Part shown: positions 45,171-48,534 of the stretch, in pieces
How the letters are laid out: each line of letters begins with the position of its first letter
Numbering within the stretch: position 1 is the stretch's first letter
Assembly (NCBI RefSeq): GCF_011758655.1
Contig: NZ_JAAMPA010000003.1
Coordinates: forward strand, 62,001-126,000
Origin: Modestobacter marinus
GTDB lineage: Bacteria > Actinomycetota > Actinomycetes > Mycobacteriales > Geodermatophilaceae
Length of the DNA: 64,000 nucleotides
Reading direction: 5' to 3'
The notes under the pieces: model-generated
Databases searched by the model: none
Seen by the model: the letters and a program-made list of their open reading frames with translations, nothing else
What the model was told of the DNA's origin: nothing
Position numbers and translations under genes: made by a program

Positions 45171-45267
45171 ACGACGAAACGGCCCCGTCCCGGGGGGACG
45201 GAGCCGTTGGTCGATCGTGGTGCGCCCTCAGGGACTCGATCCCCGAACCCGCTGAGCGTGAGTCAGA
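45171..45267 (-). repeat. Left attachment-site copy: 3' half of tRNA-Lys plus its terminator
   Basis: From ACGACGAAAC to ACCCGCTGA this repeats 48412-48495 almost exactly: the hairpin AACGGCCCCGTCCC...GGAGCCGTT, then the T arm and acceptor of tRNA-Lys. Changes such as GCCATC to GCCCTC and loss of the anticodon stem make it a non-functional tRNA fragment. It is the displaced host end of the original attachment site. Confidence 0.8.
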
Positions 45268-45301
45268 GTGAGCCCCTGCCGGAGGTCGACGGCGACTGAG
45301 A

Positions 45302-45490
45302 TCCGGCTGGCGGTCGACGAGCGGCGTGACCCGACCACTCGGGCCGGGCGTCACAGCGGATCACCGAGCAGCTGGGCATCAAGGCCGAGACGCTGCGCAA
45401 CTGGGTCTTCCAGGCCGAGGTCGACGAGGGGCACCGGCCCGGGATCGCCGACCTGCACCACTACGGCCGGCAGGTCGAGAGACGCCCAAC
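45302..45490 (+). pseudogene. IS3-family transposase OrfA remnant
   Basis: Two frames together give the OrfA pattern. First RLAVDERRDPTTRAG, then after a one-base shift RITEQLGIKAETLRNWVFQA and EVDEGHRPG, the helix-turn-helix and linker of IS3 OrfA. The N-terminus and everything past the linker are missing. It is embedded between the left attachment copy and another transposase scar. Confidence 0.7.
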
Positions 45491-45494
45491 GACC

Positions 45495-45735
45495 GCGGCG
45501 TCACCTTGCTGCGGCCGGCCGCCCCGGAGCACGGCTGGTCAAGCCGCTGCGGCAGGTGAGCGAGTCGGTCAACGACACCTCACGAGGCCACTCCGGCTCG
45601 AACACCACGGCGGACGCACCCCGACCGGGATCTGGGTCCGCGTCCCCCCACGGGTCCTGGCCCAGAGCCGCCATCCGGCACAACGACCGCATCGGCGCAC
45701 CGACCCCACGATCGCTGATCCCGTACGGCCACTGG
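45495..45735 (+). pseudogene. IS982-like transposase C-terminal remnant
   Basis: Fragments in successive frames, GVTLLRPA, KPLRQVSESVNDT, EHHGGRTPTGIWVRV, HNDRIGAP and RSLIPYGH, match the order of the C-terminal end of IS982-family transposases. At least three frameshifts separate them. There is no terminal inverted repeat that I can see. Part of the 859-base stretch between 44891 and 45749 that contains no intact gene; 44891-45170 shows nothing beyond GC-rich sequence. Confidence 0.6.
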
Positions 45736-45749
45736 CCCCTGGGGATCAG

Positions 45750-46388
45750 TCATCCAGGAGGCCGCCGCCTCGGGGCCTGTGACTCCGTCGGGGAGAGCAG
45801 GGTCGTTGCGGCGCTGATGAAGGACTGTGGGTCGAGGTTCGGGAACCAGATCCGTTGCAGCGCGTAGCCGGGCAGCAGCGCGACGATGACCTGAGCGGCG
45901 GCGTGTGCGTCGACGTCGTCGCGCCACCGCCCGTCGTCCTGCATGTGGGCCAGTCTGGAGGCCAGCGAGCAGGTCACCCGCTCCACGATGTCAGCCACGA
46001 CCCCGGCTACGCCGGGGTTGTGGAGGCTCTCGTTCCAGATGGCCACGGCCACCCGCCGGTGGTCTTCGTCAGTCTCCACCGAGTCGAACGCCGCGACGAT
46101 CCGACGGACCTCGTCACCGATGCCCCCGGTGCGGACATCGGGCTGCACGTCCGGTTCAGGCTCGCCCAGGAGTGCATCCAGCTGCCGGGAGACGCCCTCG
46201 GCGATCGCGACGATCAGGTCGTCCTTGCTCTTGAAGTACCGGTAGACCCCACCAGGGGACAGACCCGCCTCTGCGAAGACGTCTTGCATCGTCGTGCCAT
46301 GGACGCCTGCCCGGGCGAAGCACCTGACGGCGGCCGCCACGATCTGCAGGCGCCGGTCGGCCAGGTGTTGGGCGCTCACTCGCGGCAT
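45750..46388 (-). CDS. TetR-family repressor of the element cargo
   Basis: A 212-residue regulator starting MPRVSAQHLADRRLQIVAAAV. The helix-turn-helix is CFARAGVHGTTMQDVFAEAGLSPGGVYRYF. The C-terminal ligand domain includes VAVAIWNESLHNPGV and a helix ending LQRIWFPNLD. ATG at 46388. It is divergent from the ABM/SCP2 genes, with two operator-like inverted sequences in the gap, so it probably represses itself and the cargo until a small molecule binds. Confidence 0.9.
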   Translation of the reverse strand: MPRVSAQHLADRRLQIVAAAVRCFARAGVHGTTMQDVFAEAGLSPGGVYRYFKSKDDLIVAIAEGVSRQLDALLGEPEPDVQPDVRTGGIGDEVRRIVAAFDSVETDEDHRRVAVAIWNESLHNPGVAGVVADIVERVTCSLASRLAHMQDDGRWRDDVDAHAAAQVIVALLPGYALQRIWFPNLDPQSFISAATTLLSPTESQAPRRRPPG

Positions 46389-46404
46389 GCCGCGACGGTA
46401 CCAA

Positions 46405-46425
46405 AAAGAACGGATGTCCGTCTTT
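46405..46425. promoter_or_regulatory. TetR operator-like site 1
   Basis: AAAGAACGGA-TG-TCCGTCTTT, a near-perfect inverted repeat with core ACGGATGTCCGT, lies 17 bases upstream of the tetR start codon. Its core is repeated in inverse orientation at 46460-46471. Confidence 0.7.
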
Positions 46426-47040: not shown

Positions 47041-47724
47041 ATGAGCACGGCACGCATCGCTGTCCCCAGCACGATCATCCGGCCGGGCGCCGATCCCCTG
47101 ACCGCCATCAACTTCCTCCACGTGGAAGAGGAAGACCAGGCCCGCCTCGTCGACGTCATGGTCACAGCCGCCCAGCACATGGCCGGCACCCCCGGGAACG
47201 TCTCCCTCAACGTGCTGCGGTCACTGGACGGCAGCCGGATCGTCAGCTACGGCCAGTGGTCCGACGAGCAGGGCCTCCAGGCGGCCGAGCGGGTCGACCC
47301 CGTTCCCGAGCTCGTGGAGCGGGTCCGGGCCCTGACCGTCAACCACCCACGGCCGCGGCTGTACTCCGTCGTCTACGCCGATGACCGGAGCCCCGAGGGG
47401 GTGAGCGTGATCTCGCCGTCGTACACCGGCGCGATCTTCATCAACGAGATCACCACCCAGCCGCCCACCCAGGCCCGGCTGCTGGAGCTCGTCATCGCCA
47501 ACAACCAGATCCAGTCGCAGAACACGTCTGGGTACCGCTCAGCCAACTTCCACCGCAGTACCGACGGGGAGCGTGCCGTCAACTATTCGCTGTGGGACAC
47601 CGCTGAGCACTGCATCCAGGCCATCAGCGCCATGGCGGACATGGACGAGAACCTCGCCGAGACCGTCGAGATCGCCAGCCCCGACTTCCGCTTCTACGAG
47701 CTCGTGCACGCCAGCCACGCGTGA
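47041..47724 (+). CDS. Tandem antibiotic-biosynthesis-monooxygenase (ABM) domain protein
   Basis: A 227-residue protein with two ferredoxin-like ABM domains. The first is about residues 18-95 (TAINFLHVEEEDQARLVDVM, LNVLRSLDGSRIVSYGQW), the second about 125-220 (GAIFINEITTQPPTQARLLE, ANFHRSTDGERAVNYSLW). The repeated R.LDG..(I/A)V.Y..W strand pair is typical of cofactor-free monooxygenases and polyketide cyclases of the TcmI/ActVA-Orf6 kind. The ATG at 47041 has AACGAGGAG at the right distance. It sits between the TetR gene and an SCP2-like gene and probably acts on a hydrophobic aromatic compound. Confidence 0.85.
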   Translation: MSTARIAVPSTIIRPGADPLTAINFLHVEEEDQARLVDVMVTAAQHMAGTPGNVSLNVLRSLDGSRIVSYGQWSDEQGLQAAERVDPVPELVERVRALTVNHPRPRLYSVVYADDRSPEGVSVISPSYTGAIFINEITTQPPTQARLLELVIANNQIQSQNTSGYRSANFHRSTDGERAVNYSLWDTAEHCIQAISAMADMDENLAETVEIASPDFRFYELVHASHA

Positions 47725-47794
47725 CCCGGCCCGCCCGAGACAGCCCTCGAGCAGCCGCTCCTGGGACCAGCACGACCACCGAGAGGAACCCGTC

Positions 47795-48145
47795 ATGAAC
47801 GCTCCCGCTGCACAGCCCGTCACCTACCCGGCCGCCGTGGACCGGCTCCGGTCCATCCTCACTTCGAGCACCCTGGGAGAGGTGGGCGCTGTCTACGCGT
47901 TCCACTTCACCGACGGCGGCGAAGCGACGCTGGACGGCAGCAGCGCCGCTGGTCTCGGCTATGTCGACGACGACCCGGCCGCTCACGGCCTGACCCCCGA
48001 CTTCGAGGTCAGGCTGTCCCGGGAGGACTTCGCCAAACTGGTCTTCGGTGAGCTGCACCCGATGGCCGGCATGGCGACCGGGCGGATGAAGCTCACGGGC
48101 AGTTTCAAGCAGGCCATCAAGCTCGACCGCCTGCTCAAGGGGTGA
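47795..48145 (+). CDS. SCP2-like lipid-binding protein
   Basis: A 116-residue single SCP2/sterol-carrier-type domain: FHFTDGGEATLDGSSAAGLG, then PDFEVRLSREDFAKLVFGEL and the closing MATGRMKLTGSFKQAIKLDRLL. The domain binds lipids or hydrophobic ligands in a tunnel. The ATG at 47795 follows GAGAGGAACCCGTC. It is 70 bases downstream of the ABM gene in the same direction, so the pair likely handles the same hydrophobic molecule. Confidence 0.9.
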   Translation: MNAPAAQPVTYPAAVDRLRSILTSSTLGEVGAVYAFHFTDGGEATLDGSSAAGLGYVDDDPAAHGLTPDFEVRLSREDFAKLVFGELHPMAGMATGRMKLTGSFKQAIKLDRLLKG

Positions 48146-48163
48146 GCCGCCCGGACGACCCGG

Positions 48164-48370
48164 TGCCCGCCGCCGGTGCGACTCCATGACCTGCGCCACG
48201 GAGCGGCGCCCCAGATGCTCGCTGGCGGTGCCGACATCGCCGTCGTCGCCGAGCGCACGGAGCACTCGTCGGTGCGCCTCACGATCAACACGTGGAGCGA
48301 TCTCCTCGAGGGCGTCGGGCGGTCTGCGGCCGACTCGGCAGAGCGCATGGTGCGCCCGCGGGTGACCGCG
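48164..48370 (+). pseudogene. Tyrosine recombinase (integrase) C-terminal remnant
   Basis: The C-terminal catalytic box of a phage-type integrase: PPVRLHDLRHGAAPQMLAGG, ADIAVVAERTEHSSVRLTIN, then TWSDLLEGVGRSAADSAER. The HxLRH and HSSVR motifs remain. However, the position of the catalytic tyrosine (TYSHLL in relatives) is TW, and the N-terminal two thirds are missing. It lies next to the tRNA-Lys 3' end, as expected for the integrase of the element. Downstream codons run into the tRNA terminator. Confidence 0.8.
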
Positions 48371-48411
48371 GCGACACCGGATGCGCATAGTGCGCCCGGC
48401 GACGCTCGAGA

Positions 48412-48461
48412 ACGACGAAACGGCCCCGTCCCGGGGGGACGGAGCCGTTGGCCGATCGTGG
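48412..48461 (-). terminator. tRNA-Lys terminator and right attachment-site copy
   Basis: On the minus strand AACGGCTCCGTCCC pairs with GGGACGGGGCCGTT, followed by TTCGTCGTTCT, an intrinsic terminator for tRNA-Lys. The same hairpin is duplicated at 45177-45208 at the other end of the element. Confidence 0.75.
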
Positions 48462-48534
48462 TGCGCCATCAGGGACTCGAACCCCGAACCCGCTGATTAA
48501 GAGTCAGCTGCTCTGCCAATTGAGCTAATGGCGC
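48462..48534 (-). tRNA. tRNA-Lys (anticodon CTT)
   Basis: Minus strand. Acceptor arms GCGCCAT and ATGGCGC pair over seven bases; the D arm begins TAGCTCAATTGGCAGAGCA. Anticodon stem GCTGA/TCAGC carries loop CTCTTAA (anticodon CTT). The T arm contains GGGTTCGGGGTTCGAGTCCC. The discriminator is A at 48462; no CCA is encoded. It is the integration target of the element to its left. Confidence 0.95.

Follow-up and report, generated by a model that had tools for sequence, protein, structure and literature searches.

The 64,000-nucleotide stretch of Modestobacter marinus DNA considered here (contig NZ_JAAMPA010000003.1, positions 62,001 to 126,000; hereafter the window, whose own numbering we use throughout) contains a tRNA-Lys(CTT) gene beside which a few genes lie enclosed between two copies of the tRNA's 3′ half. 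The best explanation of the whole, to which we give a probability of about 0.87, is that this is the remnant of a phage-type element that integrated at tRNA-Lys(CTT) and decayed, together with a cargo that includes a TetR-family regulator, a protein with tandem ABM domains and an SCP2-like protein. A first-pass annotation, made from the DNA letters alone, had proposed an integrated element at this tRNA, its mobility genes broken and its regulated cargo intact and kept by selection. The element stands up well, resting on the repeat, an empty site in genome G001 and an integrase at the same site in genome G021; the claims for the cargo survive only in part.

The tRNA-Lys repeat and its empty counterpart

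Comparison of the DNA with itself gives an ungapped direct repeat of 99 bp, 45168–45266 against 48409–48507 (both on the minus strand; 91 of 99 bases identical, E 1e-38), made up of the 3′ half of tRNA-Lys(CTT) and its terminator, and so the doubling of these parts at both ends, as first annotated, is borne out. The right-hand, proximal attachment-site copy belongs to an intact tRNA-Lys (CTT) gene (48459–48534, minus strand; found by ARAGORN, 69 bits in Rfam), the only complete tRNA at either copy; the left-hand, distal attachment-site copy is without the 5′ half. Across the whole window ARAGORN returned this gene and a single tRNA-Leu 44 kb off, and between 43000 and 51000 tRNA-Lys was the sole Rfam match at gathering thresholds. 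No tRNA cluster surrounds the left copy in either search. Both copies fold into a strong terminator-like hairpin (each about −33 kcal/mol, z −4.9); we judged the terminators on these folds because a terminator pattern scan picked up neither of them. The flanks measured have G+C fractions of 0.733 and 0.742, and the stretch between the repeats is lower, at 0.698.

An uninterrupted version of the site was the check that had been called for, and one of the relatives provides it. We read the site in 18 of the 22 other congeneric genomes. In G001 it is empty, the left flank (43017–45266) and the right flank (48358–49939) overlapping at one tRNA-Lys, and G016, G009, G013 and G020 likewise have a single copy, adjoined by the left flank or some part of it. 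The tRNA 3′ half occurs twice in two of the 18 stretches (G021 and G007) and once in the other 16, figures that a more distant second copy could escape because several stretches reach only a few kb leftward or have the left flank and the tRNA separated by other genes. The tRNA-Lys site is variable across the genus.

Could the two copies have arisen by a replication error that duplicated the terminator and the tRNA 3′ half locally, with no integration at all? They are nearer each other than to any of 8 other sequences compared, which favors such an event. We nevertheless consider it very improbable: an integrase fragment adjoins the tRNA, the repeat stops close to the anticodon loop here just as in G021 and in G073 (a genome of another genus), and the site in G001 is empty.

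The integrase remnant and its relatives

The integrase fragment, at 48176–48385 on the plus strand, corresponds to residues 335–404 of the 451-residue tyrosine integrase of G021 (52 of 70 identical) and lies, as annotated, next to the tRNA 3′ end. It scores 26.0 bits against Pfam Phage_integrase, just below the 27.1 cut-off. Residues 423–451 of the G021 protein are matched in the window as well, in a different reading frame, and about the first 334 codons (roughly the first three quarters) are missing. In the alignment, Trp occupies the position of the catalytic tyrosine and a conserved Gly-His has become Glu-His, positions that we take to have active-site roles. What remains is no complete integrase with a catalytic tyrosine, such as a mobile element needs. 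What the window shows of a tRNA-targeting element with a tyrosine integrase is thus the end repeats, the empty counterpart and an integrase beside the tRNA, the last as a fragment only. The suggestion of internal deletions also fits, with most of the integrase and the mobility genes lost and about 3.1 kb left between the repeats. The seven window frames scanned have no Pfam match to a phage structural or packaging gene, such as G069 and G073 carry, or to a Rep or Tra gene.

A related element with a complete integrase, which the first-pass annotation had advised looking for, occurs at the same site in G021. There an intact 451-residue frame adjoins tRNA-Lys; its product shows phage-integrase, arm-binding and SAM-like domains and matches phrog_1, a family of phage integrases. 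The 3′ half of the tRNA recurs 7.1 kb away as a 50-nt copy. (ARAGORN also listed a second tRNA-Lys in G021, at 3746–3820, whose 5′ half we treated as spurious, as only its 3′ half matches.) Besides the integrase the G021 element has an excisionase-like protein and, among the frames scanned, no structural gene; against the window DNA it gave only short, chance-like matches beyond the integrase stretch and the repeat. In G073 a 99-bp repeat, 89.9% identical and 7.3 kb apart, again lies at tRNA-Lys, accompanied by a tape-measure-like protein and a truncated integrase whose match begins at residue 276. G069 has an integrase 75–80% identical; its element, 15 kb long and with a 51-bp repeat, sits at tRNA-Thr and includes matches to terminase and tape-measure proteins. 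Because G073 and G069 carry phage-type genes, the element family looks phage-type. In a phage collection all 2188 records matching the integrase were below 60% identity, and in IMG/VR it has three weak relatives, whose best segments are 34, 24 and 20% identical.

The window alone cannot tell which repeat copy is which, because its two copies, with the loop left aside, differ at only 3 of 85 positions. G021 is more informative: the distal terminator, set against the chromosomal type of G018, shows 8 differences in 98 columns; the proximal one, set against the G013 type, shows 2 in 87; and between the two there are 25 in 95. As these terminators belong to two lineages, it is the copy beside the integrase that is indicated to have come with the G021 element. 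By analogy, the chromosome's own copy in the window is most likely the one at 45168–45266, now displaced.

The far end, opposite the tRNA, was said to carry transposase scars, and it does. An IS3-family OrfA fragment, frame-shifted, lies at about 45300–45444 on the plus strand, with 84.7–87.0% DNA identity to stretches of open OrfA-like frames of 110 residues in G021, G004 and G033; IS3 labels stand on 5 of 30 among the plasmid matches listed for the region. At about 45513–45760 is a fragment of an IS982-family transposase (strand unassigned), recognized by about 68–74% DNA identity to plasmid sequences of Streptomyces and others; 6 of 30 among the plasmid matches listed are annotated as IS982 family transposase, one of them confirmed in its record. 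With the integrase cut, IS3 frame-shifted and IS982 a fragment only, the mobility genes are indeed broken.

Proposed course of events

In the account that we propose, the anticodon loop of tRNA-Lys(CTT) was the entry point of a phage-type element that carried a tyrosine integrase, and the original tRNA 3′ half and terminator were thereby displaced to the far end, 45168–45266. Later most of the integrase, about the first 334 codons of 451, would have been lost along with the other mobility genes, and the active-site tyrosine would have changed in the part that survived; copies of IS3 and IS982 would have inserted at the far end and decayed in their turn. Direct observation covers the repeat, the empty site, the kinship of the integrase, the truncations and the open frames; the phage nature is inferred from the relatives, and the sequence of events, the regulation, the chemistry and a delivery of the cargo by the element are likewise inferences.

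Several observations weigh against this account. The divergence of only 3 in 85 between the repeat copies points to a near donor and a recent arrival, or else to copy correction, and is hard to square with long decay. Four contiguous mismatches (45256–45259 against 48497–48500), with matches on both sides, fall where the tRNA's crossover loop is presumed to lie. The dead integrase fragment still has a pairwise ratio of nonsynonymous to synonymous change (dN/dS) of 0.20 against G021 and 0.21 against G073, where G021 against G073 gives 0.03. Its unique changes, nonsynonymous to synonymous, number 20/14 in the window, 1/5 in G021 and 3/6 in G073 (4 to 9–11 for the two relatives together). These counts themselves speak for a decayed integrase, but the relaxed-constraint contrast, 20/14 against 4/11, is not significant (Fisher p 0.062). 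Lastly, the frames listed for the elements of G021, G069 and G073, with their longer integrases, show no ABM–SCP2 cargo.

The cargo genes

Nearest the insertion-sequence scars is the gene of a TetR-family regulator with a BetI-type C-terminal domain (45750–46388, minus strand; Pfam TetR_N 63.1 bits, TetR_C_6 41.3 bits). Its start is probably 46388, as the homologues listed align from residue 1. Between it and a divergent membrane-protein gene lie two operator-like palindromes, each fitting the same 15-base pattern, at 46407–46421 (minus strand) and 46460–46474 (plus strand); the pattern occurs at these two sites only in the 5.1-Mb genome, a count to be read with the fact that it was derived from the two sites themselves. 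Comparable pairs, judged by eye, lie upstream of TetR homologues in four relatives (G104, G027, G119 and G028), and a strict palindrome search flagged two of those four loci; the fifth relative locus read, in G017, had no TetR match. A sigma-70 promoter scan found none.

The membrane gene is the damaged part of the block. At 46597–46932 (plus strand) an ABC-2-like membrane protein is reduced to its C-terminal part: judged by homologues of 336–341 residues, about the first two thirds are missing and about the last third remains. The remnant has no Pfam match of its own; two full homologues match ABC2_membrane_3 weakly, below the cut-off. Because the gene beside the operators is truncated, the cargo is not wholly intact and its regulated block is damaged. 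The picture of an intact, regulated cargo therefore holds for the open TetR, ABM and SCP2 frames and the palindromes, and fails at the membrane gene. Good ribosome sites had been claimed for all three open genes: by eye, a purine-rich stretch precedes the ATG of ABM and of SCP2, and the TetR gene has no clear site.

The other two genes lie on the side of the integrase fragment. The first encodes a tandem ABM-domain protein of 227 residues (47041–47724, plus strand; Pfam ABM 49.2 bits in two stretches), the second an SCP2-like protein of 116 residues (47795–48145, plus strand; Pfam SCP2 38.5 bits); like TetR, both exceed their Pfam cut-offs. SCP2 domains bind lipids. In the PDB the ABM protein matches 9kdp, 9lsd, 5f9p and 1lq9, and from such matches it looks like distant kin of the anthrone/quinol-type monooxygenases. 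It shares the ABM family with ActVA-Orf6 and the two-domain anthrone monooxygenases (1lq9, 9kdp, 5f9p), of which 9kdp and 5f9p align with both halves of the protein; it differs from them in the distance of the similarity (E 2.5e-9 to 9.5e-6) and in having an SCP2-like gene next to it. Most likely TetR keeps divergent transcription shut off as long as no lipophilic or aromatic compound is bound to it; ABM would then oxidize that compound (in an anthrone/quinol type of reaction) and SCP2 would bind or present it.

Where the cargo came from

The two halves of the cargo have different distributions. Among 112 genomes of the family, TetR (E 1e-15) and the membrane protein (E 1e-5) were each matched in 17 besides the window's; 16 genomes, all of other genera, have both, adjacent and divergent, and none of the 16 has an ABM or SCP2 match. 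The same 112 genomes hold full-length ABM in one, the window's own (five others match weakly), and SCP2 in that one only. In the order sample 54 of 397 genomes, the window's included, match ABM at E 1e-3, with G243 alone close (68%); in the phylum sample it is 1 of 396, the window genome, at E 1e-25. A scan of contigs gave three ABM loci, with best-segment identities of 71% for the one in the Frankineae metagenome-assembled genome (MAG) AVDCRST_MAG07 and 56% for each of the two in Spirosoma spitsbergense. The MAG locus (L053) appears to be the same record as G243, with the same frames, and we counted the two once. At all three loci an SCP2 homologue directly follows ABM, the match at L054 ending early. 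The regulators differ: both Spirosoma loci have before ABM a TetR alike to the window's over 44–59 residues only, and the MAG locus has there what by eye is an MFS-like gene, its TetR giving no match to the window TetR. Both Spirosoma ABM genes carry an in-frame stop, which makes preserved function there less likely. Beside the pair at the Spirosoma locus L055 (6796–7416) is a DDE transposase (PF13612, a domain we take to be typical of IS982); its likeness to the window's IS982 scar, 13 residues matched at E 0.007, may be coincidence. Among plasmids, ABM matched one record at 33.6% identity over 47% of the protein, and for the region as a whole the best 20 of 184 matching records each cover at most 7% of the query. 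IMG/VR gave no match to ABM. At high similarity, then, the pair was found in an actinobacterial MAG and in Spirosoma only, among the collections searched.

Because none of the three related elements with longer integrases (G021, G069 and G073) shows it among the frames listed, the cargo may have arrived separately: an old prophage scar would have been entered later and independently by the block of TetR, membrane protein and ABM–SCP2, possibly with the insertion sequences. The confinement of full-length ABM to the window's genome within the family speaks for this, as do the IS982 scar beside TetR, the transposase beside the L055 pair and the composite nature of the block, its TetR–membrane pair known without ABM or SCP2 and its ABM–SCP2 pair with other regulators. 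Pulling the other way are the SCP2 stop, about 30 bp from the integrase fragment, as a single deletion within one element would leave it, and the brevity of the transposase match. We rate a separate arrival as a serious candidate, if somewhat short of an even chance; it bears on the origin of the cargo and leaves the integration of a phage-type element at tRNA-Lys as it was. Going further, one might picture ABM–SCP2 as a rare self-contained module under TetR control, borne between phyla by insertion sequences and placed under whichever TetR is available, that here survives in a dead prophage and keeps the scar; we think this unlikely.

Selection or drift

That selection keeps the cargo was among the earlier suggestions, and we could not uphold it. 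Against G243, dN/dS is 0.40 for ABM and 0.33 for SCP2, values that mostly reflect older history and so are no proof of present selection; as evidence we rejected them, because they are no lower than the 0.20–0.21 of the dead integrase fragment. No second family genome with the cargo was found among the 112 for a selection comparison. The open frames are compatible with selection, which we would put at rather less than an even bet. Drift, with nothing selected and the frames open merely because the event is recent, we regard with similar caution, as a reading that falls a little short of probable. In its favor are the small divergence of the repeat copies in the part compared, the truncation already suffered by the membrane gene, the cargo's dN/dS and the in-frame stops in the Spirosoma ABM genes. 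In simulated neutral runs, all three cargo frames stayed free of stops in 47% at 0.02 substitutions per site, which suits drift; the share falls to 16, 2.7 and 1.3% at 0.05, 0.10 and 0.13, which does not. Neither does the chance of escaping indels, 0.016–0.0002 at 0.05 substitutions per site under an assumed 0.05–0.1 indels per substitution. The neutral clock is loose, the repeat copies differing at 8 of 99 positions overall against 3 of 85 without the loop, and the larger figure goes against drift.

Relation to known elements

The element is of a well-known kind, and the rare ABM–SCP2 pair is its sole new part. Phages with tyrosine integrases use tRNA-Lys-CTT sites with 33–49 shared bases, and passages of PMC10865867 describe how they integrate at the anticodon loop and rebuild the tRNA; by the same passages, attB-2 of Mycobacterium is tRNA-Lys-CTT, used by phages such as Hammy, DS6A and Aminay. 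As far as those passages go, the window is like the attB-2 actinobacteriophages in tRNA isotype, in a 3′-half core reaching the anticodon loop and in a tRNA rebuilt on integration, and unlike them in its 99-bp shared block that includes the terminator, its roughly 3.1 kb between repeats and its want of a working integrase. Integrative and conjugative elements of Frankia also occupy tRNA-Lys, and remnants of them are described in parts of PMC3218068; on that partial account the window shares with them a tyrosine recombinase, the tRNA-Lys 3′ end and the state of a remnant, and differs in lacking Rep and Tra among the seven frames and in having relatives with phage-type genes. A literature search over titles and the openings of abstracts gave, among the matches listed, no account of the element or of the ABM–SCP2 pair.

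What the site offers is a comparative series at tRNA-Lys, running from empty (G001) through a complete integrase (G021) and a reduced element (G073) to one nearly erased and holding foreign cargo (the window), in which G021 indicates the copy of the tRNA 3′ half that arrived with the element. The ABM–SCP2 pair, for its part, may mark an unstudied module for detoxification or biosynthesis.

Other observations at and near the site

In G007 (L039) a second copy of the tRNA-Lys 3′ half lies at 2199–2284 (reoriented coordinates), 1.2 kb from the intact tRNA, and it too deviates at the place in the crossover loop where the window copies have their four mismatches. No integrase match was found at E 1e-4 within the stretch read, and the copy perhaps belongs to another erased element at the same site. 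In G005 and G018 (L034 and L035) other genes, by eye those of GNAT/Nudix-like proteins and a polysaccharide-deacetylase-like protein, separate the left flank from tRNA-Lys with no second repeat copy. Left of the element, two neighboring genes in opposite orientation contain a 275-nt inverted stretch (43124–43398 and 44601–44875, 71% complementary); their products are presumably related GAF/ANTAR regulators.

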